A DNA stretch of 32,574 nucleotides. Source: a virus. Each line of letters opens with the position of its first letter. The first letter of the stretch is position 1. The notes under the pieces were generated by a model that saw only the letters and a list, made by a program, of their open reading frames with translations, was not told where the DNA came from and did not search any database. A program made the position numbers and the translations under genes. Of the stretch, positions 3,716 to 31,717 are shown piece by piece. The stretch covers positions 1 to 32,574 of the IMG/VR virus record IMGVR_UViG_3300010389_000070; one strand, written 5' to 3'.

Positions 3716-3904
3716 TTACTTTGTCTCTAGTTGTGCCTTAAGATTGGCGTTTTCTTCGAGCAGTGCTTCTACTTGTGATTTATAATCTTGAGACAAAGTA
3801 CTTAACTTTGCCTCAAGCAGAACGTTTTGATTTGTTAATGTTGCTAATTTGGAATTATAAAGTTTAATAAGAACATTTACATCCACTTCATTTTGTTGTT
3901 CCAT
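3716..3904 (-). CDS. 62-aa coiled-coil protein, unknown function
   Basis: Almost the whole protein is predicted by eye to be one amphipathic helix. After residue 8, hydrophobic residues recur in heptads (LIKLYNSKLATL, VLLEAKLSTLSQDY, VEALLEENANLKAQLE), typical of a parallel coiled coil. No signal peptide or membrane segment is seen. It sits between the fibre-like gene (3 bases before) and gp13 (1 base after), roughly where T4 has the fibritin region, but it is far too short to be fibritin. A small oligomerisation or chaperone role for the neighbouring fibre is possible but unproven. The GGAGGA in the last codons of the upstream gene is its best ribosome-binding site. Confidence 0.8.
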   Translation of the reverse strand: MEQQNEVDVNVLIKLYNSKLATLTNQNVLLEAKLSTLSQDYKSQVEALLEENANLKAQLETK

Positions 3905-3907
3905 GTA

Positions 3908-5614
3908 TCAGAAAGTTCCTCCGTCAAGAGTTGAAGTCCAGTGTGGTTTATTAGTATATATGTCGGTGATTGTATTGGGAACTGAAGCAAGATTTGTAAT
4001 AAATCCGTTCTGACCTTCTCTTCTCAGATTGCTTCCAGTAGTAAATGTACCCTCAATACCAACAAGACTGACTTGAGTTGATCCAGATACACCTTGCTCA
4101 ACCACACCATATGCACCACTGGTATCTTGTCTAATAATATCACCAGCAGAAGCAGTAATTGCTACGCTAAGATCAAATGTCTTTTTAGTGATTGCAGTTA
4201 AAACTTGCTTTGAAGTGAAAACTGGAGAGGCAACAGCATTTGTAGATCTTTGAAGACCAGTGCTGTCAAAATAGACAACACCACCAGTTGCATAATCACC
4301 AGACTGATAGTAAATACCTTTGATATCAAGGAAACCTTTGGTTCCTGCTACAACACTATTGGCAATAGTAGCGTCGGGAACATATACCCATCTTCTGCTA
4401 TCGTCAGCGTGAGTTCCGTGGTTATCTACTCCAGCAGTACTGGTGGCAATGGAGTCATCCTCCATACCAAAGAATCCAGTTTCATTATCTGCAACGCCAC
4501 TTCCACTATTGTATGCAAAAGAAATACCTCTATCGGTATTGCTATCGTATGCATGAGTAATTGTTACTTGCTCAGTCGTTGAAATACCAGCAGTCGTGTT
4601 AGCACTGATAGTAACTACTTTTGTGCCAGTATTATATGCTGTAATTGAAGTTGAACTAGGAATATTTGCATGAGCAATTATATCCCCAGTATTAATACCA
4701 ACAACTGAATCGAGAGTAATTAAGTTTGCACCACTAGCAACGGTTGCCATAACCGTTCTTGTGCTTGTTACATCGCCAATATGTAAGATCGGATCATTTA
4801 TCGTCTTCTGTGTCGAGTTAATGGTAGTGGTTGTACCATCAACTTGTAAGTTACCTTTAATAATAACAGTTCCTTCATTACTCAATCCATCGGGATATGG
4901 ATCAATGTAGATTGTATCATTACTTCCTGGAATACTGGAAATAATGTTATCTTCGATTCTAATTAAATCGAATATTGAACTTCCATCTACACTAAAGTTT
5001 CCACCAACATTCAGATTTTTTTCAATACCAACACCACCTTCTACAATTAATGCACCAGTGTCCTTATCGACAGACTCTGTAACAACATTAATACGGAAGT
5101 CAGCACCAGTATAAGTAAACTGATCTACTCCATTCTCATCATATTCAAATTTTGCGTTCTTATCATCACCAAAGGTGAGGAATGTATCGTCTGGAATCTG
5201 AATTTCACCAATTCCATTTGGATCGAGTACAATATCTCCGTCAGTATCTGTTGACGAAATTGTATTGGTGTCGATTCTTAAGTTATCGACGTTCCACTGA
5301 TCTACTTTCAGTGAAGAAGCACCACCAAGACCAGTGTTTGGCAGTGGTTCCATAACGGCAACAACGCCACCGTCTTGGTTTCTTGTGTTTTGTACACCTG
5401 CAACAGCACCTGGATCGTGCTCCATCATTGAGGTGTAGTAATATCCACCAACTGGGTTGGCGTTAGTACCATCATCTCCAAGGAAAATTCTGTCCTTGTA
5501 CTGATTAGTTCCTCCGAAACTACCAATACCGGTTACATATCCAAATTCACCCCATTGTAGGGTGGATGGTTTGCTAGTACCCGAGGATCTTTTAATCCTG
5601 ATAATACTTGCCAT
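3908..5614 (-). CDS. Fibre-like virion structural protein
   Basis: This 568-aa protein is built of phage-fibre motifs. The N-terminus ASIIRIKRSSGTSKPSTL with GEFGYV resembles tail-fibre openings that display an array of grid-like features. A repeated beta framework follows: DTDGDIVLDPNGIGEIQIPD, then TGALIVEGGVGIEKNLNVGG, then EGTVIIKGNLQVDGTTTTIN. Near residue 270 begins NDPILHIGD, and at about 353 DSNTDRGISFAYNSG with TGFFGMED; these two parts are normally adjacent in this motif, and about 70 residues of Thr/Ile/Val-rich sequence are inserted between them. The protein ends DGGTF. It lies in the place of T4 genes 11, 12 and wac. Probably an accessory or short tail fibre; receptor binding is inference. 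Confidence 0.75.
   Translation of the reverse strand: MASIIRIKRSSGTSKPSTLQWGEFGYVTGIGSFGGTNQYKDRIFLGDDGTNANPVGGYYYTSMMEHDPGAVAGVQNTRNQDGGVVAVMEPLPNTGLGGASSLKVDQWNVDNLRIDTNTISSTDTDGDIVLDPNGIGEIQIPDDTFLTFGDDKNAKFEYDENGVDQFTYTGADFRINVVTESVDKDTGALIVEGGVGIEKNLNVGGNFSVDGSSIFDLIRIEDNIISSIPGSNDTIYIDPYPDGLSNEGTVIIKGNLQVDGTTTTINSTQKTINDPILHIGDVTSTRTVMATVASGANLITLDSVVGINTGDIIAHANIPSSTSITAYNTGTKVVTISANTTAGISTTEQVTITHAYDSNTDRGISFAYNSGSGVADNETGFFGMEDDSIATSTAGVDNHGTHADDSRRWVYVPDATIANSVVAGTKGFLDIKGIYYQSGDYATGGVVYFDSTGLQRSTNAVASPVFTSKQVLTAITKKTFDLSVAITASAGDIIRQDTSGAYGVVEQGVSGSTQVSLVGIEGTFTTGSNLRREGQNGFITNLASVPNTITDIYTNKPHWTSTLDGGTF
3918..3923 (-). promoter_or_regulatory. Shine-Dalgarno inside the end of the fibre-like gene
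   Basis: On the minus strand the bases encoding the C-terminal DGGTF contain GGAGG, 13 bases before the ATG of the 62-aa gene. The spacing is longer than ideal, but no better site exists between it and the start. Confidence 0.45.
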
Positions 5615-6254: not shown

Positions 6255-9200
6255 TTATGCAAGTGCAATAGCTCTGAAATCTTTCAATCTTACTGGTGTA
6301 GATTCATTCTTAGACGACATAACAACTTTAATTGCAAATGCAGTAAATTGATCAAGATTATTGGCAGTGAATTGATATTCAGAGAATCCTTCAAAATCAT
6401 TTGGTGTAACAAAAGCATCTGCTCTTCCACTATTCTTTTGTGGATCAATAACACGATCACCGAATCCGTCGCCGTCGTCATCAATAAGGTTGTCCCAACC
6501 TGGGAATGGTACAAACTTTTGATCAACTTCACTTGAATCTGCTTTGACCAGTTTATAAAGGACACGGAAATCTGCATCCTCTTGCCTGTTGGCAGCAATA
6601 ATAACTCTCAAACTTGTTGCAGGTTGTGCCAAAGAAATAGTCTTAGTCACAAAAACTGCTCCATGGGGATCTTCGTCAATATTGTTTGATCTTGGATCAT
6701 CAACATAATCAATGATAGGAGAATTAGACTTGTTTCTTCCAAGAACAAATGTTGCATTCTGCATATCCATTACAGGAGACAGATTTTCATCTGTGCTTGA
6801 GAATTCAACTCTCATGGAAAGAGACTTATTGCGAGGAAGAGCACTCAATCTTGCAAGTTCATTTACTCTAGAAGCAACCATTCTTGGTGTGCGTAAGTTC
6901 AATACTTTATTCAGAGTTACTGGTTCAAATCCTTGGTCAATAAATGAAACTTCATTTCCACCAGCACTTGTTCCAGAGATTGTTCTAATTAAAGCATTCG
7001 CAGCAGTTCCTTTTCCTGGAGTAATAACATTGAACATAGGTTCAATTGTACTATATTGGAAGTTTTGTGAAATTCCAACGGTATTTCCACCAAATCCTTT
7101 TTGTGCTGCAAAATTGAGCATTCCAGATCCAGTAGATCGTATAGTTGGTGACTCTGTACTTCTATCAAATTCAAGATAGTAATTGTCAAGGTTAGAATTC
7201 TCAGATCTGTAATATGTTGATGGAATATTGTGAGAAGTGTTAATTCTTGTCAATGAAACGCCATTGACTTCATATGGTTGAATGGATTCACCAACTGTAT
7301 GTGAAGACTTAGAGGAATTGTTAATTGATCTTGCATCAATTGAAAGAGTTCCTGCTCCTCCACTACCAGCACTAATTGCACTGTAAGAAATAACTTCATT
7401 GTTGAGAAGAGCATATCCACGACTTGTGCCGATTCCTTCAAATCTTGCAAAAATTGCGGTGTTAGCGACAGAAACTATAGTATCATTTTCACCGAAGTTT
7501 GAAGTGATTGTAGTTTTTTCCGTATCTGGAAGTACGTCTTCAATCAGAATTCTATTGTTTCCACCATGGTGTGCATGGTTTTGTTGCTTGATTCTGAAGA
7601 CGTTTCCAGTATATCTGTCATCAACAATTGATGAAGATCCATTTACAGTTACTCCAGAACTTGTTCTTGTCGATTCATTATTCGGATCAGTATAATGATG
7701 TACTGCAAGAGTATTTGTGAAGTTTTCACCCTGAACATTTGTGAGATAGAGTGAATCTGGATTTCCAACTCCAGTGATTGTTATTTTTGCTCCAGAACCT
7801 TTTTGTTGTGAAGCAGTACCCATGCTTGAAGTAACAATACCAACAGTTTCTCCAGGAACAAATCCTTCACCGACAGAAGTAATATTTACAGATTGAATAT
7901 TACCAAAAGCATTTGTTGTAATTGTTGCCTGTGCTCCAGTTCCTTTGCCAGTCAATGAATAAAGAGGAACACTTGAAATAGAAGAACTATTTACATATCC
8001 AACACCACTGCTAGCAATTGAAACATTTCCAGTTCCAGATACTGCTGGTCCACCAATGTTCTCAACAAATCCTGTGATGTTTGAACCACTGGATCCTTCT
8101 GTGACTTTTACGCCAGGTCTAACATTTGCATTAAGTGTTCCGGAGATAGGCAGTTTTAACTTTCTTGGCAGACCTTCGATTGGGTTGTCTTGAAGTTTGC
8201 TGCTATTATCGCCCTTTGGAAGAACATCTGAGTTGTAGAAAGTGACTGTTCCTGAAGGAACAAATTTTGCTTTATACAGTTTGAATGTTAAATCCTGATA
8301 CTGACTTGCTGTCCAAATAGTACCATTTTGAGACTTAAACAGAGATCCACCAATATATTGCTTGGTAACAACTACATTCTGAACGTCTGGAAGATTTGTC
8401 GTTCTGACAGTCTTCTTACCCATTGTTGCAGTCCACATTTCATATCCATCTGAAGCTGGTGAAAGAATAACAATCGCATATTCTTTATTTGCTTCAAGAT
8501 AAACTGGGGATGGGAAACGAATCCTTGTTGGAACTGGTTCGAATGGATTTGCCTCGTTAATATTAATATCATCAGGATTCAAAGCAACCTGAGTGTAGTC
8601 TTGAACAAGGAATGAGGTTGGTGTTCCCAACTCCATAGTTCTCAATTCTACATAAATTTTTGCCCCAGGATCTTTGGTTGCAAAGTAGAGATCGAATGAA
8701 GTGAGGAATGCTCCTCTTCCATCAACAGTAAATGACTGTGCTAATGGGTCTCTGTGAGGTGCTTTAACTTGAACTTCAACTTCTGTTTTTCTTGCTGCAG
8801 GTTTGGGTGGATTTCTGACAGAAACACGACTTGTCTCTTGTGTCAGAATTGATCCAGATCCACTATAAGTGCCGAGTGCCTCTGAAGCAAATACTGTAGA
8901 TCCTGGAAGAACTACTGTATTTGGTGGAACTGCAGTTACCTTAACGGTCTTTGTTCCACTCTTAACTCTTACTGGTGGCAGTGGATTTGAATTTGGATCT
9001 CTGAAGAAGAAGTTTGCAACAATATCTCCCCAGTTGTCAGATACTAATTCTGCTCTGGTAATTGTAGCAACAGCACCAGATGTTTCACCAATTACTCTGG
9101 AACCTCTTTCAACATATCCGTAGAACTTTTCATCGGTAGAAAGTGCTCTTACACCAAAGTTAATAAGTCTTGATGTTGGCGAATATGCGTCGCCTGGTGC

Positions 9201-12200
9201 TGGTCTGTTTCTATCATATGGATCTACACTATATTCTTCAACCAAAACTGCTGGAGATCCGAGTCCAGCACCAATGTCTGGTCTGGAAGTATCGCCAAAT
9301 TTATGATTTGGTTTTTGAACTCTAATGTATCCAATCTTCTTACCTGTAGAGTCGAAGATATTTGCGTTCTCGAAAACTCTAAATGTTCCCGAAACCATTT
9401 CAATCTCACAAAGTTTTGGAATAATGTCAACTTGCTGACTATCCAAATACAAATAATGTTTTGAGAAGGGTCTTAATCCATTTGCGTTGAAATAAACATT
9501 TCTTGAACGCATCCATGGATCTGCTTCTCCAGATACTTTTACGTCTTCAACGTAATTGAATTCTCTTGCAGGACCTTGAAGTTTTGGAGTATACTTAGTT
9601 GTTGTTGTAATCGTTGTAGTAGTAAATGCTCTAGTTACTCTTTCACCTCTACCACCACCTTTCTTATAACTTACATACTCTGTTTTGTTATCAACGTCTC
9701 TGGTTACATTTGCCTCTTGAGTCCATTTGGCACCAGTCGATTCTGTTCTGTGATCGTCAACATAAATGGTTCTAACCCAGTTGTCAGATTGAGGATCTAA
9801 TACAACACCACCAACGAATACAATGACATTGAATGGGTTGACATTTTCAACGTTTGTTGCATGTGGTTGATCAATCCAAGCAACTTCCTGATAATCAAGT
9901 GTTAATAAATCTCCAGTCTTTCTGATATTTCTATCAAGAAGAGTCAGGTTTTGACTCATATCTGCCTGATCTACGTCAATTCCTGGATCTAATGCCAATT
10001 GTGCTCCCATTGACCAGAAATCAACTGGAGCAATCGCTGTTGCACCTTCTTTTGAAATATCAACAGTGGAAAGACGTGGATCACAAAGAGATTTGTCTCT
10101 AAAGTCACTAACAATAAATCCACTCTTGAATCTATTGATACCATTAGCGTCGGTGATTTCAAGAGTTTTTGCACTCATTTCCAGCATACTTAAGCTGGTC
10201 AACTCCTCTAATGTTTCAATTCTATCTTCAAGTTTACCAATATCTCTCATCGTGAATCTTCTATTATCACGAAGAAGAACCCTTGGATCTTTTGTTGGAT
10301 TAAAGAGGTATGGTGGCAGAAGAATTTGTGCAATTTCCATTGCATCATCTGCAAGGACTGGAGCCTGTGGTTTATCGGCAGGTTCTCCTTTGATAACTTC
10401 AATTTCACCTAGACGATTGATAGTAACTAAGTCAATTCTTGGCAGATAGTAACTATAACCCATGAATGAAGTTTCATCAGGGGAAACAACGTACTTATAG
10501 TTGTATTCATACTGTCTGCTAGAGAATGCAAATGGAGATGCATTTGTAGTTGCAGGATTAAATGCGGCAACTCTAGGTCTAAAGTCGAGTAAATCTGAGC
10601 AACGAAGTCCGTTTGGAAGAGTTGGAATATCGCTGGTAAATCTATCTTGAGAGTATGAATTTACTGTAAAGATATCTCCGGTGTTATTTGAACCGACTGC
10701 ATATGCGTCGTAAACAACCAATAACTGACGAGAAGGAATTGCGGATCCAGGTCTTCTTATAATTCTGGAGTAATCGCAGAATTGGTGGCGATGACCTTTA
10801 TCAAGTCTATAATTTGCAGTTCTATTGACATAACTTCCTGGAGTTATTTCTTGAATAACTGCACTGATTGCAGAATCTTTAAACTTGACAGATTCACCTA
10901 CTGCAAAGTTGTTTGTATTTAACTTTACATAACTAACACTATTTGAAGTTTTGCTTACTACTTGTGCAACAGCTCTACTGTCTTGACCTACGATTTTTTC
11001 ACCAACGATTACATTCTGGTCTAAAGCAAGACCAGTAGCAAAAGTTAATTTATCAAGAACTGGTGCAGAAGTATTGGTAGATTCATAAACTGCACGAACA
11101 TTAACAACATCTGGAACATTGAGAGAAATCTCATTGTCCTCAATTCTTGTTCCATAATATTTGCTAGTTGTTAATCCAGTAACCTCAGATACTCCACTAG
11201 TTCTTACAATTGATACTGTATTTGATCTAGTAAAATCTTTTGTCTTATTAGTAACTCCTCTCTTTTTAAGAGTTGCTTGAACAGTTACTGCACCATTATT
11301 AGGAAGACCATTGAATGTTACAGAATTTCCATTTGCCCCAAGAGTAAACATTCCACTCTTGAGTTGTACAACTGTTCCATCATCTTCAGTAATAGTATAT
11401 CTTTCTGCGTCAAATGTTTCAAAGAATACACTAGTAATACCGGCATTTACATCTATCGCATCAGCAACTGTCAATGTAAGACTGTTACTAGTAACAGACT
11501 TTCCAGTAATTTGTTTTGTAATTGTTAATTCAGAATTTGCAAGATCAACTGATGCAATCTTTTCTACTGGTAAAGTTGCATAAAGACCATTGAATCCATA
11601 TTGACGAATTCTAGGAACCATCAATGAGAATGTGTATGAACCATTTGCAACTGTAGAAAGGTTTACCCCTGCAATTGCTGCGGGTGCTGCTGCCAAAGTT
11701 ACTGTCGTTCCATCAGCACGAATAGCACTTACAGTGTTGTAAGTTGGGGAAGCATCTCCTGTCTGATACTTGATAATGCTACCAACTTTAATTCCACTCT
11801 CACCATCTGCAAAGTTTCTTCCAGAAACTCTACCAGTATTTCCACCACTAACGACCAGTTGATCCTTTACACCAAATCTTTCGAGTTCTTGCTCATAAAG
11901 AACAGTATCTGCAATAAAGTTCGTATGCAATGAAGTATTCAATGCATCTGCATCTTGGAATACTGACTTAATATCACTGGTATCATAGATTGTCATTCCA
12001 GTAATAGCAGTTTTATACTGCTCATTTTCATTGATAATGACTTGCTCACCAATCAGGAATCTTCCTGAAGTTTGTGTTAAACTATAATCACTTCCATTGA
12101 CATCTGAAAGATATCCAGTTGCTCCACTTGAAAGACCTCTAATATATGAAGTCAGAGGAACTTGATCAGTTTGATTATATGTATTGGCGAGAGTTAAATT

Positions 12201-13676
12201 GACATAAGTCTGAATATCATAAAGATAAAGATCCCAATCAGTTGAATTATCCTCATATGGAGCATCTGATACACCAAACCAATATACTCTTGCTTCACCA
12301 ACTTTTGTAGTTAAACCTGCAGTACTTGCGTTAGTTGTGTTTGTATTTCCTCCAGCGTTTCTTCTTTCACCATATAATTCAATAATATTGCTATTGGTGC
12401 TGCCAGATCCACCTGCAGCAGTGTCGCCAATGTTTATATAAGGTGTGCCGTGAACATTATTGACTTTGACTAAACTACCAAGGGCAAATGGAATTAATGA
12501 TCCATTTATCTTTTTGGTTGTTCTTGGTTTTTGTACGTCAATAACTGTGGAACCCACAAGATCAACATCATATCCTCTAACGTATGCGGTGCCAGCAGAG
12601 ACTCTGACGCCCATCAAATCGTCGCTAGGTGTATTTCCTTGGTCAGTTACTTCGTCCTCTCTGAAGAGACCTCCATTGCCTGTCTCGTTGTTTAAAGTAT
12701 CAACAACGTCTACAATAAAATTATCTACAGCATAGTTCCCAGACTCTTCGAAAGTTCTTTTTGCGAAGTAGTCTTTGATTAAATTATAATTTGATTTATT
12801 TTGTAACTTCTTGATTACTCCATCATCAACTCTTACCAGTTCTACGAAACTGGTATCTTCAATATCTGTAAGTAACTTCTTAGTTAAGTTTAAAGTAATT
12901 TTTAATCTATCTGCACCAGGTGCAGCATAGTTTGTAAATCCTTTTGCATTGTCATTTAGAGATTGATCCTGATCTGAGTTTACAATCTCTTCTATAATAT
13001 CAAAACCAACTCTATATGACGGACTATTGTCATATGGATCAAGAACAACTTGTGAGTTTGGAACGTCTACAAATGTTCCTCTAATAAAGTAAACACCTTC
13101 TGCAACACCAACAGCATATCCAGTAGAAGCAGCATCTACTGCATTTAATGTAAATACAGTATCTCCAGAAACTATTGAAGTATTGCCATAAGTGACATTC
13201 TCTTGAAGAATTAATGTCTCGCCATCTTCAAATTCTACACTGGAACCGTCAATGCCACCATCTTGATACTTGACAAATAAAGTAATCTCCTCTACGCCTT
13301 CTTCTGGTGGTAAAAGATATCCCTTTACCGTCGCATTAATTTCAGAACTTTGACCTTTTACTTTCGCACCTTTGCCGTTATTTGCATTTACAATAGAATC
13401 AAGATATACTGTAACGTCAATACCTAAGTGATCTGGATTTACCTTTACTGTTGTAAATGCATTGTCACATGTGATTCCACCAGGAATCACCATAGAACCT
13501 TCTTTGAACATGTGACTGCCAAAAGATTCTATCTGATTTTGTAGAATCGATTGAAGACCTGTTAATTCCCTAGCCTGTACTGGATATCCAGGTTTAAACA
13601 GAACCTTATAAAAATTATCTGCCTTATCAAAGTCGTCATAGTAAGGACTTACGTTTAAATTCGTCTTTTGTGGCAT
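6255..13676 (-). CDS. Giant gp10-position baseplate/fibre-connector protein (DUF4815 start)
   Basis: At 2473 aa this is about four times T4 gp10 (602 aa). The first 70 residues, with NLNVSPYYDDFDKADNFYKV, LFKPGYPVQARELTGLQSIL and QNQIESFGSHMFKEGSMVIP, match the DUF4815 type of phage structural protein. Near residues 1640-1800 a block with DPLAQSFTVDGRGAFLTSFD and later YEMWTATMGK is typical of these proteins. Residues about 1870-1980 carry GxGY/GEGF repeats. A NEVISYSAI...GESIQPY module lies near 2100. The C-terminus has DDDGDGFGDRVID (about 2397-2409), a calcium-loop-like Asp cluster. It directly follows gp8, where T4 has genes 9 and 10. The gp10 assignment is by position; it may combine gp9/gp10 functions. 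Confidence 0.82.
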   Translation of the reverse strand: MPQKTNLNVSPYYDDFDKADNFYKVLFKPGYPVQARELTGLQSILQNQIESFGSHMFKEGSMVIPGGITCDNAFTTVKVNPDHLGIDVTVYLDSIVNANNGKGAKVKGQSSEINATVKGYLLPPEEGVEEITLFVKYQDGGIDGSSVEFEDGETLILQENVTYGNTSIVSGDTVFTLNAVDAASTGYAVGVAEGVYFIRGTFVDVPNSQVVLDPYDNSPSYRVGFDIIEEIVNSDQDQSLNDNAKGFTNYAAPGADRLKITLNLTKKLLTDIEDTSFVELVRVDDGVIKKLQNKSNYNLIKDYFAKRTFEESGNYAVDNFIVDVVDTLNNETGNGGLFREDEVTDQGNTPSDDLMGVRVSAGTAYVRGYDVDLVGSTVIDVQKPRTTKKINGSLIPFALGSLVKVNNVHGTPYINIGDTAAGGSGSTNSNIIELYGERRNAGGNTNTTNASTAGLTTKVGEARVYWFGVSDAPYEDNSTDWDLYLYDIQTYVNLTLANTYNQTDQVPLTSYIRGLSSGATGYLSDVNGSDYSLTQTSGRFLIGEQVIINENEQYKTAITGMTIYDTSDIKSVFQDADALNTSLHTNFIADTVLYEQELERFGVKDQLVVSGGNTGRVSGRNFADGESGIKVGSIIKYQTGDASPTYNTVSAIRADGTTVTLAAAPAAIAGVNLSTVANGSYTFSLMVPRIRQYGFNGLYATLPVEKIASVDLANSELTITKQITGKSVTSNSLTLTVADAIDVNAGITSVFFETFDAERYTITEDDGTVVQLKSGMFTLGANGNSVTFNGLPNNGAVTVQATLKKRGVTNKTKDFTRSNTVSIVRTSGVSEVTGLTTSKYYGTRIEDNEISLNVPDVVNVRAVYESTNTSAPVLDKLTFATGLALDQNVIVGEKIVGQDSRAVAQVVSKTSNSVSYVKLNTNNFAVGESVKFKDSAISAVIQEITPGSYVNRTANYRLDKGHRHQFCDYSRIIRRPGSAIPSRQLLVVYDAYAVGSNNTGDIFTVNSYSQDRFTSDIPTLPNGLRCSDLLDFRPRVAAFNPATTNASPFAFSSRQYEYNYKYVVSPDETSFMGYSYYLPRIDLVTINRLGEIEVIKGEPADKPQAPVLADDAMEIAQILLPPYLFNPTKDPRVLLRDNRRFTMRDIGKLEDRIETLEELTSLSMLEMSAKTLEITDANGINRFKSGFIVSDFRDKSLCDPRLSTVDISKEGATAIAPVDFWSMGAQLALDPGIDVDQADMSQNLTLLDRNIRKTGDLLTLDYQEVAWIDQPHATNVENVNPFNVIVFVGGVVLDPQSDNWVRTIYVDDHRTESTGAKWTQEANVTRDVDNKTEYVSYKKGGGRGERVTRAFTTTTITTTTKYTPKLQGPAREFNYVEDVKVSGEADPWMRSRNVYFNANGLRPFSKHYLYLDSQQVDIIPKLCEIEMVSGTFRVFENANIFDSTGKKIGYIRVQKPNHKFGDTSRPDIGAGLGSPAVLVEEYSVDPYDRNRPAPGDAYSPTSRLINFGVRALSTDEKFYGYVERGSRVIGETSGAVATITRAELVSDNWGDIVANFFFRDPNSNPLPPVRVKSGTKTVKVTAVPPNTVVLPGSTVFASEALGTYSGSGSILTQETSRVSVRNPPKPAARKTEVEVQVKAPHRDPLAQSFTVDGRGAFLTSFDLYFATKDPGAKIYVELRTMELGTPTSFLVQDYTQVALNPDDININEANPFEPVPTRIRFPSPVYLEANKEYAIVILSPASDGYEMWTATMGKKTVRTTNLPDVQNVVVTKQYIGGSLFKSQNGTIWTASQYQDLTFKLYKAKFVPSGTVTFYNSDVLPKGDNSSKLQDNPIEGLPRKLKLPISGTLNANVRPGVKVTEGSSGSNITGFVENIGGPAVSGTGNVSIASSGVGYVNSSSISSVPLYSLTGKGTGAQATITTNAFGNIQSVNITSVGEGFVPGETVGIVTSSMGTASQQKGSGAKITITGVGNPDSLYLTNVQGENFTNTLAVHHYTDPNNESTRTSSGVTVNGSSSIVDDRYTGNVFRIKQQNHAHHGGNNRILIEDVLPDTEKTTITSNFGENDTIVSVANTAIFARFEGIGTSRGYALLNNEVISYSAISAGSGGAGTLSIDARSINNSSKSSHTVGESIQPYEVNGVSLTRINTSHNIPSTYYRSENSNLDNYYLEFDRSTESPTIRSTGSGMLNFAAQKGFGGNTVGISQNFQYSTIEPMFNVITPGKGTAANALIRTISGTSAGGNEVSFIDQGFEPVTLNKVLNLRTPRMVASRVNELARLSALPRNKSLSMRVEFSSTDENLSPVMDMQNATFVLGRNKSNSPIIDYVDDPRSNNIDEDPHGAVFVTKTISLAQPATSLRVIIAANRQEDADFRVLYKLVKADSSEVDQKFVPFPGWDNLIDDDGDGFGDRVIDPQKNSGRADAFVTPNDFEGFSEYQFTANNLDQFTAFAIKVVMSSKNESTPVRLKDFRAIALA
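7737..8069 (-). repeat. GxGY-type repeat block in the gp10-like protein
   Basis: Residues about 1870-1980 contain SSGVGYVNSSSI, GKGTGAQATITTNAFGNIQS, VNITSVGEGFVPGETV and GSGAKITITGVG. They follow the same strand-GxGY-turn pattern as the gp14 repeats, though more diverged. Confidence 0.65.
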
Positions 13677-18200: not shown

Positions 18201-21200
18201 TTCAATATCGTAGTTGTTTCCAGCGTTGTTATCTGTTGAAGGAGTCTGGAAAACACCATTGATAAACAGAATTCCATTTCCTGGTTCAACGCCAGTTGTA
18301 TCAGCACCACCGACCTTAAGTGTGTATGTCTTACCAATACCAGTAAATGAATCCGAAATATCATCGAATATCATATTGGTATCGTAATTAGATCTCAAGA
18401 AAGTTCTTCCTGAGAATGAAGCAGTCACATAAGGAAGATTGCTCTCATTTCTTCTTGCTCTATTATTTCCTTTTGGTGGTTCAATAAAGAATACTTCATT
18501 CTTTACAATGTTGATAGCACCTCTGTATACTTGAACAGTAGATCCGTCCGTGTGTGATGTTGCTGCTGTTCCAACAGATCCTCTCTCAACAGAAACTGTT
18601 GGGAATGTTGCAGCAGCACCAGCAGCAATAAGACCATTGATTGGACCAAGAATTTCTCCGCCAGAGTTGGTGCTAAAACCAACTTCGACGACTTTCATAT
18701 ATTCTTCGTCAATTTTGAGAAGATCTCTTGGTTGGACCGATGAAATTCCACTAATATTGAAGGTTGAAATGCCTGCAGAGATTCCCCCAGCAAGATAGTG
18801 ACCATTAAAGTCTAACTTGTGGTTAACGGGAGTAAATGTAATTGGTTGCTGTACAATACCATCAATTGCAATAACAGTTTTACTTAATTTCTTAGTAAAT
18901 TCTAATTCATGGGCATTTCCAAGTCCAGGATCAGTAAAGGTGACAAAGATTCCTGCTCTTGCAAATTCGGGAGTTGTTGCTAATTTAAAAGTATCTGGGG
19001 TCAGTGCAATTGGATAAACTTTTTCTGGAAGTTTATCAGTTACAATTCCAAGATAGTTTGAAGTTGCTCCAATTCCCATTGAAGTTTGACCAACTCCAAC
19101 AAAAGTGGAGACTGGGTTATACAATACTTCTTCGGCTGTGTTAAAGAAGTGATCGGGAAGTGTAAAGAGACCAGTTGCATAATTTAATTTTGTAGTATCT
19201 GAAGGATCAAAGGTCTTCACATAAATTGGTTTTCCATTGTGAGTAATTGGGAAGTTTACTCTATTTGCTCTCAGACCGTTCAATCCGTCAAATGCCGAAA
19301 GGAATAAAAGTTGATTGGAAGGACCATAAGAAAGTGGATTTGCTTGATTGTCAAAATCCATTTGTCTGTAGAAGACTTCATTGAAAGACTGAAGTTCTAC
19401 ATCATATGGAGAATCTGGATAGAAATTCAAGTAGAAATTCGTTCCTACAATTTCACTACCAAATGTTCCAAGACCACTTACATTATTAACCGCAGAGAAT
19501 GGTCCTGGAGTAACAGTTACTTCAAGATCTTTTGCATTTGCCAGAATATTAACTTGGTGTATTGCAGAAGTTTCTCCAACCGAAACACGAACAATTGACG
19601 CGGCAGAGGAAATTGTATTAATATCAAATGTTCCTGCTCTTACAACATCAGTACCAAATCCAATGACAGATTCAAGTCTAGCACTTCTCTCTGTTCCTTC
19701 TGGTTGATTATTCAATAAGAATCTGTATGTTCCAATACCTGCAGTTGTGTTGCCAAATCCAACAATATTGGTTCTATAATCAAGTGCGTCAGTTTGACTG
19801 AAATTGCGTCCTCTTACAGAAACAATACCAGAAACAGAATCATAAGTTGCAGTTACTAATCCAACAGAAGAAGCACTGTAGGTTTGAGTATTGTGATCAA
19901 AATAGTACTCACTTACATAAGTATCAGATCCATCAAAGTCAACTACTGCTTCAATGTAATTTGTTTCTCTTGTAAATCTATTAGTAACCTCAATGTTTGC
20001 AAATAATCCTCTGAAGTCTGCGTCAGAAAACTCTGCCAGAGTTTGAATATCATTTCCACTTGGTACACTACTAACACCAACAAATGAAGCAACGAGATCA
20101 ACACAACCTATTGATTGTGTTCCAATACCAGAGTTTCCTGCTGGAAGTGCTTGATACAGGTATGTTTTCTTTATAATCTTTATGTCGTGATCTGTTTCGT
20201 ATGGATCTGTTGGTGTAAAGATGAGAGTCTTTCTTCCAATATCATCAATATCTGCACTAAAATCTCCAAGTTTTCTATTTGAGTATGTGGTATATTTTTC
20301 AAATAAGAAAATATCATTAGTTGAAGATTGTACAATAAGTTCTGATAATTGAACATCATCAGTGTCTGGATCAACAATCTGAATAACATATCTTACATGA
20401 TTATCAACAAAGTCAATCTCCTCAATTTCTACGAAAGTATCTTTAAATCCTCTACTAGAGAACTTGCTACTAATATCGTCATGAGTGAGAACTCTATTTG
20501 TTCTGCATTCGATGTAATCGGTAAGTTTTCTGTTCTGAATTTGCAGAGCATTTGATTGTGGAAGACCACTGATTGAACTTACTCTTGGATCAACATCTAC
20601 AGCATTATCAAAGTAGTTAACTGTGTCAACTCTTCTTTCATTGACAACATCCAAAATAACAATTGAAGTTGTTGATCCACCAAGACCAACAGCACTGGAT
20701 GCTTCAGAAGTAACTCCAACGTCAGCAAAATTCTTCAGACCTGCTGGGTGAATAATACTGTTGACTGGTGCTGAGAGTTCATTCCATGTTATTGGACTCT
20801 TGATTGAATATGAAAGATTTTGATAATAATCATTATTAGGAGTTACTTGATAATCTTCACTAATCTTACCAATATCATTACTCCAACCAAGATCTAATCT
20901 TGAAGAATAATCAACGGTAAACTTAGATCTCTTTCTATCAACAGAAGTTACATCTGCAATAGCGCCACTATTGATTCCTTTAATTTTATCACCTTTCTTA
21001 AGGTTATATCTTCCTCTAACCTTAATATAATCTTCTCTTACCAGGGAGACAAAAAGATCTTCTGCACGGAATCCAGTTCCAGTATTGACGAACAGTTTCT
21101 CATTATCGGAGAATACTGCTCTCTTCTGCTTAATATTGATAATTGGATAATTCTCTTCATTTACAATGGTTGCATATCCAGACTGATATGTTTTTGCAAT

Positions 21201-28118: not shown

Positions 28119-30095
28119 TTATTTCCTCTCTAGAGCTCCGTTTGAATAACTTGAAGTATAGTAATCTCTTGTGAAAGACACGCCAGAAATATCTTCACCA
28201 GATGCAATTACATCTTTAACCATATTTATTGAACTATTGGGAACGCTGAACGTCAAATATAGATCCTTAAGACCTATAACATCATTTGATTCTGGGTATG
28301 CTTGAATCTCAATAATGTTGTTTGGTCTTTGAGTACTTGTGATATTAAGTGTGTTGAGTATGATCTCACCTTTAACATAATCAACGGTTCCTGCCTCCTT
28401 AGCAACGACAACTCTATTGCCATTAGAATCAAGTTTAACCAATGAAAGAACTCCCTTTTCAGCACTTACAATTCCTGGTCTGGAAAGGAACACCTGTGAC
28501 GCTGCAGTAGCATTTGATACTCTGTTTCCACCTGCTGTAATTTCTGGTGCGTCTGTAAGGTATACGGTTGATGATTCTCCAGCAATTGTGAATCCTGTAG
28601 ATTTAATGTTGTATCCGTTGACATTTACATGGAACTTATTGCCAAAACAAAGTTCATATTGTGCAAACTGATTCAACAATGCCTTCATATCTCTTCTAAT
28701 TTTCACCTTTGTGATATTAGAAGTAATTGCAGAGTCAACTCTATCAATAAGTTGTAGGACTTTACTGTATTTGAATCTTCCACCAAAGCGATTCATGTCA
28801 ACATCTTGAGAATATTTGGTAAGAGAATCAATAACGTTGGTTCTCAGATCATCAACATTTGTAACTTGGGCATTGTTGTAGTAAATGAAGGAGTCAATTT
28901 CAACATAAAGAACCTTAAGGTCGATAATTTTTTGGTTGATTCCGGCAATTGAGTATTGTTTGATCTTGTTTAAAATATTTTGCTTATCAAAATCAGAAAC
29001 ATATGTACCATTTTTTGGTTTGATACTGATTTGTACCGTACCAAACTGTGGTGGGGACAATTCTTCTCCACCAACTACTGCAACTGATTCTGTATTTGGA
29101 TAAATTGAAGCAATGATTGCCTCATAATCCCTCGCTGTAACCGCTCTGTATTGCGCTGAGTAGAGTCTTGGAGCGAAATACTTGATAGAGGACACATTCT
29201 CAATTTCACCGCCATTCATTGCCTTCTGAATGGTCGTTACGGGAACTGACGCAGTAGGAATGACGCGAACATTTGACTGATCGAGGAAATTTCCTTGGAA
29301 ATCAAAGACCGAAGGTCCATTTCCAGACTCACCATCAGTAATAATGTATCTTACTGTGATAACAGCATTATTTTCTAACTCTTTACCGAAGTATCCGTCA
29401 CCAAACAGAAGTTCATAACGCTCATCTTGAACTTCTTGTATTAAAAAGACTTCAGAATTTTTGTCAATGTTTAAAATATTGTCAATCTTACTATATTCTC
29501 TTCCTAAACCGGTGTCATTGATACCTTTGACGTATACAGTAATAGTTGAGGTGTCAATATTTGGATTATCAAGAACAAATCTCTGATCAATTGACGTATC
29601 AACTAAAAATTGTCTTGAAAGTAGAGATCCTTGATAGATTTGAATTGGTGCTGCTGCTGATCCAAACTGTGCCACACCATTTACTACTGCGGCAGTGACA
29701 TCTTCTGGAATTGAGAAGCGATATGAAGTGTTATCTTGCCTTCCAATGCACACCAGACCTGCTTGGAGGGTGATAAAACCACTACTGGTAGTGGTAGGAA
29801 CACTAAAAGTTACGTTTGCCTTAGAGGCGCTTCTAGAGCGTGGTATGTAACCTATGTTTCTTGCTAATGAAACCACATTTTCACGAACTGTTGCCCCATC
29901 CAAGAAGGATTCGTTGACAACCAGGTTCGCATTAAACGCATTAATGTAAGTATTATACGCAAGAGTATCGATCAGGACGGAAAAATTCGACCCTTCAAAG
30001 TCAAAATCCGTGAAATTTGAATTTGCACGGAGATAATCCTTGATTTGAGCCTTGATTTGATCGAAATCTAGGTTAGTAAACTGTGTAAAAGGCAT
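28119..30095 (-). CDS. gp6: Baseplate wedge protein gp6
   Basis: The 658-aa length equals T4 gp6 (660 aa), a wedge protein whose dimers form the inner baseplate ring and which is related to the P2 gpJ family. The N-terminus (TNLDFDQIKAQIKDYLRANS, DFDFEGSNFSVLIDTLAYNT, YINAFNANLVVNESFLDGAT, VRENVVSLARNIGYIPRS) is the strongly conserved gp6/gpJ-like wedge core. Further on are LFGDGYFGKELENNAVITV, YRAVTARDYEAIIASIYPN and a C-terminal FTRDYYTSSYSNGALERK typical of cyanophage gp6. It follows gp25 after 3 bases in the T4-like cyanophage order. No truncation or insertion is apparent; it is the least modified large gene here. Confidence 0.96.
   Translation of the reverse strand: MPFTQFTNLDFDQIKAQIKDYLRANSNFTDFDFEGSNFSVLIDTLAYNTYINAFNANLVVNESFLDGATVRENVVSLARNIGYIPRSRSASKANVTFSVPTTTSSGFITLQAGLVCIGRQDNTSYRFSIPEDVTAAVVNGVAQFGSAAAPIQIYQGSLLSRQFLVDTSIDQRFVLDNPNIDTSTITVYVKGINDTGLGREYSKIDNILNIDKNSEVFLIQEVQDERYELLFGDGYFGKELENNAVITVRYIITDGESGNGPSVFDFQGNFLDQSNVRVIPTASVPVTTIQKAMNGGEIENVSSIKYFAPRLYSAQYRAVTARDYEAIIASIYPNTESVAVVGGEELSPPQFGTVQISIKPKNGTYVSDFDKQNILNKIKQYSIAGINQKIIDLKVLYVEIDSFIYYNNAQVTNVDDLRTNVIDSLTKYSQDVDMNRFGGRFKYSKVLQLIDRVDSAITSNITKVKIRRDMKALLNQFAQYELCFGNKFHVNVNGYNIKSTGFTIAGESSTVYLTDAPEITAGGNRVSNATAASQVFLSRPGIVSAEKGVLSLVKLDSNGNRVVVAKEAGTVDYVKGEIILNTLNITSTQRPNNIIEIQAYPESNDVIGLKDLYLTFSVPNSSINMVKDVIASGEDISGVSFTRDYYTSSYSNGALERK
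28122..28129 (-). promoter_or_regulatory. Shine-Dalgarno AGAGGAAA for the giant gene
   Basis: The minus-strand AGAGGAAA overlaps the last codons of gp6 and has GAGG 9 bases before the ATG at 28115. It fixes the start of the 4281-aa protein. Confidence 0.7.
28223..28230 (-). promoter_or_regulatory. Candidate internal late promoter AATAAATA before the giant gene
   Basis: The motif is in the gp6 coding region, about 107 bases before the giant gene's ATG. It matches the late core ATAAATA; function is unproven. Confidence 0.35.
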
Positions 30096-30098
30096 TTT

Positions 30099-30500
30099 TT
30101 ATCGCGTCGCCTCTAATATGAACGAAAATGCTTGGGTTGGTAAATCTAAACCTACAATATCGAAGTAAACATTTACGTCAAAACTATTATTATCGGGTTG
30201 TGGATTGACTTTGACGAGTAAATTTTCGACTCTATCCTCATAAAATTGAATAGTTTCCCGTATTTGCTCTTCAATAACACGACTTGAGGCAATATCCACG
30301 AAATCAAAGAGACTTCTACGAATATCAGACCCCAAGTCTGAGTTAAAAAATCGTTCTGTAGGAATGGTTTCAACCAAATTACGCACAGATCTAATGATTG
30401 CACGCTCATTAATCAAGACAGGAAGGTCCTTTGTCACAGGATGTGGGTCAAATGCAAAACTAATATCCTTAAATGCTCTTGAAACCCTTCTGGTTGCCAT
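30099..30500 (-). CDS. gp25: Baseplate wedge protein gp25
   Basis: The 133-aa product has the length of T4 gp25 (132 aa), a conserved wedge/sheath-initiator protein of the GPW/gp25 family that starts sheath polymerisation together with gp6 and gp53 in contractile systems. Visible family features are FKDISFAFDPHPVTKDLPVL near the start, INERAIIRSVRNLVETIPTE, ERFFNSDLGSDIRRSLFDF and the C-terminal VNPQPDNNSFDVNVYFDIVG with LEATR. The central R-S-V-R-N-L...ERFF...GS pattern is the family signature. It precedes gp6 by 3 bases. An exact TATAAATA late promoter is 24 bases before the ATG, so gp25, gp6 and the giant gene probably share a late transcript. Confidence 0.97.
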   Translation of the reverse strand: MATRRVSRAFKDISFAFDPHPVTKDLPVLINERAIIRSVRNLVETIPTERFFNSDLGSDIRRSLFDFVDIASSRVIEEQIRETIQFYEDRVENLLVKVNPQPDNNSFDVNVYFDIVGLDLPTQAFSFILEATR

Positions 30501-30905: not shown

Positions 30906-31337
30906 TCAAACACCCTTCAAACGGGTGCCTTGGACTAATCTTTCTCTATCAGCAAAGGTCATACCACGTGTGCTAGGTGCTGTAGAGAGTGCCTGACGTG
31001 CTGTAGCGTCTCTTTCAGTTCTTGCTTTATGAACTCTTTTACCTACAGGTGTTGCAAGTTTAGTTGCTGCCGTAACTGCCATTGCAGGAACTGCTAAAGG
31101 ACCCATTCCAAGACCAGACATACCAATTTCGCCAATGTCTCTTACAGGACGAGGTAATTTTTGAATCACTTCGTCTGCTGCTGTCGCTGCTGTTATTCCT
31201 CTGACGGCTCTACCAAGACCAGTACGTCCAATAATCGTTCTGCCAATAGGAGTATTAGCGGCACCTCTTACCGTATTCAAAAAAACATTCTCATCCAACT
31301 GATATGCTTCTGAACAAAACTGATTAAAGGTTTTCAT
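30906..31337 (-). CDS. Putative capsid-targeted internal protein, 143 aa
   Basis: The first 16 residues, MKTFNQFCSEAYQLDE, resemble the capsid-targeting sequence of T4 internal proteins and Alt (MKTYQEFIAEA...), which takes proteins into the prohead and is cut off by the gp21 protease after an (L/I)-x-E site. Here L14-D15-E16 would be the cut, leaving a mature protein starting NVF. A second possible site is I68-G69-E70. The mature part is basic (RTIIGRTGLGRAVRG; KRVHKARTERDATARQ) with a small, Ala/Gly-rich hydrophobic stretch at about 71-92, as expected of a DNA-associated or injected protein. Function after delivery is unknown. It follows a terminator and has its own late-promoter motif. Packaging is inference from the sequence similarity. 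Confidence 0.78.
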   Translation of the reverse strand: MKTFNQFCSEAYQLDENVFLNTVRGAANTPIGRTIIGRTGLGRAVRGITAATAADEVIQKLPRPVRDIGEIGMSGLGMGPLAVPAMAVTAATKLATPVGKRVHKARTERDATARQALSTAPSTRGMTFADRERLVQGTRLKGV

Positions 31338-31355: not shown

Positions 31356-31363
31356 TATTTATT
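31356..31363 (-). promoter_or_regulatory. Late promoter motif AATAAATA next to the terminator
   Basis: This minus-strand motif begins directly at the end of the terminator T-run and lies 18 bases before the ATG of the 143-aa gene. It makes a compact terminator-promoter junction. Confidence 0.68.
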
Positions 31364-31391
31364 AAAAAAGGGAGAGTCCGAAGACCCTCCC
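31364..31391 (-). terminator. Rho-independent terminator with UUCG tetraloop
   Basis: On the minus strand, arms GGGAGGGTC and GACTCTCCC pair over 9 positions (one G-U) around a TTCG loop, followed by six T. It lies 8 bases after the stop of the 49-aa gene, so it ends the upstream glycosyltransferase unit. Confidence 0.92.
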
Positions 31392-31399
31392 TCAACATA

Positions 31400-31549
31400 T
31401 CAACCTTTACCTTGTCCCCGATAGGGTTTACGCGCTTTATTGCGAGAAGACGCGGCGTATTTCGTTCCACCCCCAGCTCCTTGACGAGATTTCTTAGGAG
31501 GTCCCGGAATATAAGAGCTCTTGTTCAGACCGACTTTTGCTTTTGCCAT
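31400..31549 (-). CDS. 49-aa basic small protein
   Basis: The product, starting MAKAKVGLNKSSYIPGPPKK and ending RNKARKPYRGQGKG, is very basic (many Lys/Arg, few acids) and rich in Gly, Ser and Pro, and looks unfolded. AAGGA lies about 13 bases before the ATG as a Shine-Dalgarno. It is followed at once by the terminator, so it is the last gene of the unit. I recall a conserved short protein with the KSSYIPGPPKKSRQGAGGG pattern in cyanophages; function is not known. Nucleic-acid binding is a guess from charge. Confidence 0.78.
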   Translation of the reverse strand: MAKAKVGLNKSSYIPGPPKKSRQGAGGGTKYAASSRNKARKPYRGQGKG

Positions 31550-31555
31550 AATGTT

Positions 31556-31717
31556 TTAATCCTTTTGAATAATTTGAGTTTCAAGTTCCGAAGGGTTTGG
31601 AGAGCCCGTCTCATAAAACCTCTGAGACAGGTCCTCCATTGTATCGAAATATTCCTCCTCAGTCAAGTGTTCATAAAGAACTTTGTTGTGGTGGAGTATT
31701 GTATACAACTCTGCCAT
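31556..31717 (-). CDS. 53-aa hypothetical protein
   Basis: The small frame begins with MAELYTILHHNKVLYEHLTE, continues through EEYFDTMEDLSQRFYETG and ends PSELETQIIQKD, 4 bases after the glycosyltransferase stop and 6 bases before the 49-aa gene. It is acidic, with two probable helices and no membrane segment. The even spacing with its neighbours supports a real gene co-transcribed with them. No family recognised. Confidence 0.72.
   Translation of the reverse strand: MAELYTILHHNKVLYEHLTEEEYFDTMEDLSQRFYETGSPNPSELETQIIQKD

Follow-up and report, generated by a model that had tools for sequence, protein, structure and literature searches.

The closest described systems are the internal proteins of T-even phages, in which diverse bodies stand behind one conserved targeting sequence (PMC3012670). 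In T4 IPIII, targeting depends on residues 4 and 7 and processing on residues 8 and 10, and the propeptides of the T4 internal proteins are 10-19 residues long (PMC9026906). IPI and IPIII counter host strains from within the cell (PMC9026906; PMC9391042). In the T4 genome, read directly, IPI starts MKTFKEF (sequence MKTFKEFTSTTTPVSTITEATLTSEV) and both IPII and IPIII start MKTYQEFIAEA; when all ATG-started ORFs of at least 40 aa were scanned for MK[TSK][FY]xx[FY]xxE, the sole matches were ipII, ipIII and 61.1. The product of the last, gp61.1 (54 aa, MKTFKEFIKEDMVAG), has a capsid-targeting-like leader at 19101-19130 on the minus strand and may be an unrecognised packaged protein; its gene adjoins 61.2, near 61.4 and dmd, in a possible anti-toxin-antitoxin island (PMC9391042). 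For cyanophages, the proteome papers on S-CREM2, S-SCSM1 and S-SM1 note that enzymes such as nucleotidyltransferases and a SAM lyase recur in virions, with no packaging signal named in the passages concerned (PMC10665884; PMC9602691; PMC3037559). Full-text searches of open-licence papers turned up no tie between capsid-targeting sequences and cyanophages, barring one review that mentions both.

A basic protein with a T4-like leader

The window, a 32,574-nt stretch of viral DNA (IMG/VR record IMGVR_UViG_3300010389_000070), is a 32.6-kb fragment from which head genes are absent. On its minus strand, positions 30906..31337 hold an intact, ATG-started ORF of 143 codons, read here as the likely gene of a capsid-targeted internal (cargo) protein on the basis of the ORF itself, its orthologues and their invariant leader. 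The protein begins MKTFNQFCSEAYQLDEN; on re-reading the sequence, the position, strand, N-terminus and LDE site were as the original prediction described them, and its description of the protein as basic agrees with a pI of 11.1 at full length (pI 11.8 and net charge +11.9 for residues 17-143). Orthologues in several other IMG/VR contigs indicate a real gene, and in an alignment of seven of them residues 1-4 and 6-17 are invariant at identities as low as 59%. Extending the ORF further upstream was rejected, just seven in-frame codons, none of them Met, preceding the ATG.

A putative late promoter (AATAAATA, 31356..31363, minus strand), lying about 20-27 nt before the ATG, matches NATAAATA, the cyanophage late promoter consensus (PMC2984593). 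Behind it, a TTCG hairpin followed by a T run (31368..31393, minus strand) forms a predicted intrinsic terminator of the upstream gene and sets the transcription unit apart, so that the 143-aa gene would be expressed late from a promoter of its own. The downstream neighbours, also on the minus strand, encode the baseplate wedge proteins gp25 (30099..30500; PHROG 261, Pfam PF04965) and gp6 (28119..30095; PHROG 219). The phage is taken to be Kyanoviridae-like because this gp6 is 66% identical to that of Prochlorococcus phage P-SSM2, and its host is presumably a cyanobacterium. Two short upstream ORFs on the minus strand (31400-31549 and 31556-31717) belong to PHROG families 516 and 3252, which have no assigned function, and Syn9 gp96, encoded just upstream of gp25, resembles the first of them.

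The leader itself, a capsid-targeting-like sequence, occupies codons 1-16 (MKTFNQFCSEAYQLDE; 31290..31337, minus strand) and matches the starts of T4 IPI, IPII and IPIII. Its beginning, MKTFNQF, retains F4 and F7, the counterparts of the T4 targeting residues, as well as E10, with Cys instead of Ile at residue 8. The original prediction had likened this N-terminus to those of both the T4 internal proteins and Alt; the first half of the comparison stands and the second is wrong, because T4 Alt starts MELITELFDED, without the shared motif. An Alt-type packaged protein was rejected for the same window protein, in which an N-terminus MELITELFDE is absent. A tblastn search with the leader only returned coliphage records named 'internal head protein', which at E about 8 amount to a hint only.

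Spread of the leader and its presence in virions

The search for orthologues also returned proteins that were alike over residues 1-17 only. A leader set was therefore assembled from pattern scans of IMG/VR together with other fetched loci and clustered on the sequence after residue 20, giving at least 292 distinct leader proteins in at least 73 body clusters, at least 26 of which have two or more members. The original prediction had proposed looking for the same start on other phage proteins, and it is found on all of these unrelated bodies. In 18 viral records, MK[TS][FY]xx[FY]xxE matched 40 times, as many as five times on a single contig, compared with 0 matches to the reversed pattern. A looser pattern matched 19 times in eight complete T4-like genomes, where its control matched 3 times; in four large phages that are not T4-like, the respective counts were 1 and 2. 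Chance matching is ruled out by the reversed-pattern controls and by these non-T4-like phages, and many unrelated bodies carry the leader as a portable tag.

Some of the bodies have recognisable folds, including cytidylyl/NMN adenylyltransferases, a double-psi beta-barrel (RlpA-type) domain, adenylate kinase and glucosaminidase. For one 14-member family (L258:3736-4149, L313:5389-5838 and relatives), an AlphaFold model with pLDDT 80 matched Tpt1/KptA tRNA 2'-phosphotransferases of the ADP-ribosyltransferase superfamily and contains a YHGT motif (best E 8e-4 and probability 1.0, but a TM of only 0.38). One 14.2-kb contig (L275) carries five different leader genes, a cargo-gene cluster comparable to the T4 ipII-ipIII pair. 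In another locus (L070) an insert lies between the leader and an AYDKDVM segment. In S-CAM9 (KU686205, 108259-109098; L003:4001), the annotated start of S820908_123 (108343) misses an in-frame upstream ATG from which the leader MKTFREFCAETYQLDEG is encoded, so that the tag is hidden by the annotation.

Published virion proteomes of related cyanophages served as an independent test of the leader. In S-CREM2, just two ORFs carry the looser pattern, ORF154 (cytidylyltransferase) and ORF6 (annotated as SAM hydrolase; S-AdoMet lyase in Pfam), and both stand among the virion proteins in Table 3 of that study (PMC10665884). In S-SM1, the sole leader ORF is gene 190, the T4-GC190 citidylyltransferase, reported from the virion (PMC3037559). 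Of the two leader ORFs of S-SCSM1, virion status is given for one, the NMNAT (PMC9602691), and ORF30, which has a strict leader, went undetected in the published virion proteome. Across the three phages, 4 of the 5 strict-leader ORFs are in the virion, an outcome with a probability of 0.006 by chance. In S-CREM2, the strict form marks 3 of 50 virion genes and 0 of 165 others (p=0.012); a relaxed rule,.[KRQ].[FYL]xxFxxE, chosen after the virion list was known, marks 5 of 50 and 0 of 165 (p=5.8e-4), adding the packaged kinase ORF14 (VKRFDAFLTE), ORF13 and ORF136.

Ranking of whole proteomes by a leader profile separated virion genes from the others in S-CREM2 (p=8e-4). It showed no enrichment of virion genes in S-SCSM1 (p=0.90), which counts against a simple reading; most virion proteins are tail parts without the leader. 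The S-CREM2 authors themselves point out that enzymes of this kind may have co-purified as contaminants (PMC10665884). Four S-CREM2 (L161) genes on the minus strand (3837-5081, 10579-12846, 10310-10546 and 7704-10313) form a cluster of virion proteins with leader-like starts, among them those of the SAM lyase (MKDFDSFLEE), the kinase (VKRFDAFLTE) and ORF13 (MKDLHSFLTE). The S-CREM2 ORF labelled Cas9 nuclease, for which a Pfam search gave no match, carries LRFASFMAEA near residues 18-27, and its C-terminus reads KTFRDFLN. Similar C-termini occur on the cyanophage prohead protease gp21 (LGLFNDFLNSL, LRLFQDFLGSL, ISAFEAFLKSL and VSAFETFLKSL, from L127, L136, L143 and Syn9) and on S-SCSM1 virion protein 93 (KKKRTFKEFLEYIE). 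The docking motif may also be active from the C-terminus; as a general rule, a C-terminal leader was unsupported by the whole-proteome profile ranking.

Proteolytic processing of the leader

At the canonical T4-type cut position, residues 8-10 (C-S-E|A; 31308..31316, minus strand), the window protein has Cys where Ile stands at the processing residue of T4 (roles from PMC9026906). Among the leader matches listed, most proteins have I, L, V or M there. An alternative site for the prohead protease is predicted at L14-D15-E16|N17 (31290..31298, minus strand), and LDE at residues 14-16 is invariant in the seven orthologues. Again among the matches listed, [LIVMF]xE ending at residues 14-18 occurs in 8 of 11 Cys-8 clusters and in 9 of 61 clusters with I, L, V or M at residue 8 (p=2e-4), and a hydrophobic-x-E in comparable windows further along occurs in only 1-4 of 73 clusters. 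The common ancestry of EAY leaders may contribute to this excess, since leaders with Tyr at residue 12 also tend toward a second hydrophobic-x-E site. To judge from the sequences, the LxE site at 14-16 may replace the canonical processing site at residue 8, and cleavage at E16|N17 (LDE|N), with a predicted mature start at Asn17, is plausible. The largest leader cluster (L016 and about 74 relatives, at least 75 proteins, EAYDADVMGSSQI..., with Cys at residue 8 in its representative) has no hydrophobic-x-E within the first 30 residues, and its members may be uncut or cut differently.

The eight reference genomes with the leader, among them those of the nearest relatives P-SSM2 and S-SRM01, all encode peptidase S77 (prohead protease). 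Cyanophage gp23 precursors retain FLAE|A, LLTE|A or ILTE|T-like sequences at the place of FLTE|A in T4 gp23, with cut positions assigned by comparison with T4.

The variable body and its possible roles

Behind the leader, codons 18-100 (31038..31286, minus strand) form a basic, Gly/Ala-rich cassette that varies between phages with near-identical flanks. In one such phage (L010), the 600 nt upstream of the gene are 100% identical to the window and the 600 nt downstream 99.8%; inside the gene, identity is 100% for the leader DNA, only 60.6% (with gaps) for codons 18-100 and 95.5% for codons 101-143. The middle was apparently exchanged by recombination, because that of L010 is 92% identical to the middle of a more distant phage (L017) despite an upstream flank of 84.6% identity between the two. 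A swap of the body between a fixed leader and tail is easier to reconcile with an arms-race protein that faces the host than with a structural one. Hydropathy shows a moderately hydrophobic Gly/Ala-rich stretch at about residues 71-90, and an amphipathic segment lies at about residues 49-66. The window protein matched no PHROGs family, even at E 10, and no Pfam family, a PDB profile search gave nothing meaningful, and AlphaFold on seven orthologues yielded an unusable model (pLDDT 47, pTM 0.33).

Altogether, the window protein is quite likely a late-expressed, strongly basic, head-targeted cargo protein of a Kyanoviridae-type virus. It is probably cleaved at E16|N17 and injected. The capsid targeting originally predicted is well supported by inference, given the spread of the leader over at least 73 body clusters and its presence on packaged proteins of three cyanophages. 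As in T4, F4 and F7 would let the leader bind the scaffold core of the prohead while the shell is still open. Most likely, gp21, a prohead protease of the S77 type, would then cut after E16 (QLDE|N), so that a mature protein of 127 residues and pI 11.8 is set free in the head. By analogy with T4, this protein would exit the head together with the DNA (PMC9391042) and so enter the host. A host-countering role of the body is the leading guess and the likeliest single reading, given the pattern of cassette exchange, and by analogy it is held at slightly under an even chance. The chances seem evenly balanced that T4-like cyanophages and their uncultured relatives possess a general head cargo-loading system, in which a short exchangeable leader brings many unrelated proteins (NMN adenylyltransferase, SAM lyase, kinase, ADP-ribosyltransferase-fold proteins, adenylate kinase, wall hydrolases and uncharacterised basic proteins) into the head, to be delivered at infection, and the window protein is a rapidly exchanged host-countering payload.

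The best-surviving alternative, that the protein is targeted to the head core but stays there (or is uncut) as a structural or DNA-condensing part, as suggested for IPIII, is unlikely. It would suit so basic a protein, T4 IPIII mutants have head-assembly defects (PMC9026906), and Cys-8, together with the absence of an alternative LxE site from the largest cluster, leaves room for doubt about the cutting; however, replacement of the middle between near-identical phages would be unusual for a structural part, and the packaged leader proteins of relatives include enzymes. Lower still is the probability that it is an ejection protein, either membrane-active or tail-linked, which works in the baseplate or DNA channel with the leader as a docking motif there. 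The conserved tail (codons 101-143, APSTRGMTFADRERLVQGTRL; 30909..31037, minus strand) points in that direction, residues 98-141 being 52% identical (E 3e-10) to residues 607-650 of an S-H9-2 protein of 1103 aa, beside a Gly/Ala-rich stretch there, as do the hydrophobic Gly/Ala-rich stretch of the window protein, the baseplate genes next door and a leader protein (L097) that matches a tail-associated lysin family. Against it, soluble enzymes carry the leader too and it occurs elsewhere in genomes, the peak hydropathy of 1.33 is modest for a membrane span, and the S-H9-2 genome has no leader match. A non-packaging role of the common start, such as translation enhancement or an unrelated binding motif, is very improbable: direct proof of targeting is confined to T4, but the T4 targeting residues are kept, strict-leader proteins are mostly in the virions of three cyanophages, and the S77 protease is present in each of the eight reference genomes with the leader.

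If the head-targeted cargo reading holds, a tag of 10-16 residues would predict, from sequence alone, which cyanophage proteins are virion-borne and enter first. It would account for the NMNAT-like enzymes, SAM lyase and kinase in cyanophage particles, left open by the proteome authors, and would turn dozens of orphan genes of ocean and estuary phages into candidate first-minute host-takeover or anti-defence proteins. Its wider value would lie in a rule tying the leader to packaged cyanophage proteins.

Compared with known systems, the protein of Synechococcus phage S-H9-2 has a 44-residue tail in common with the window protein but is large, lies beside baseplate hub genes and has no leader. 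T4 Alt is packaged and injected but starts without the window leader; the ADP-ribosyltransferase-superfamily fold predicted for the 14-member leader family recalls this packaged enzyme. The cytidylyltransferase/NMNAT and SAM lyase of S-CREM2, S-SCSM1 and S-SM1 share the leader type and are in purified virions, but they have recognisable folds and leaders that end FLTE, FLKE, FLNE or FLEE, with Leu at residue 8. Unlike the T4 internal proteins, the window protein has Cys instead of Ile at residue 8, a conserved 43-residue tail and presumably a cyanobacterial host, its packaging and cutting are predicted, and similarity between its body and theirs was not detected. Like them, it is small, basic and, by its promoter, late, with an MKT[FY]xxF start, Glu at residue 10 as in IPII and IPIII, a leader common to unrelated bodies and a variable body, and it resembles IPI in its later LxE-type site (in IPI presumably cut at STITE|ATLTSEV). 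The class of tag is already known from T4, and the open-licence full texts searched contain no report of it in this phage family.
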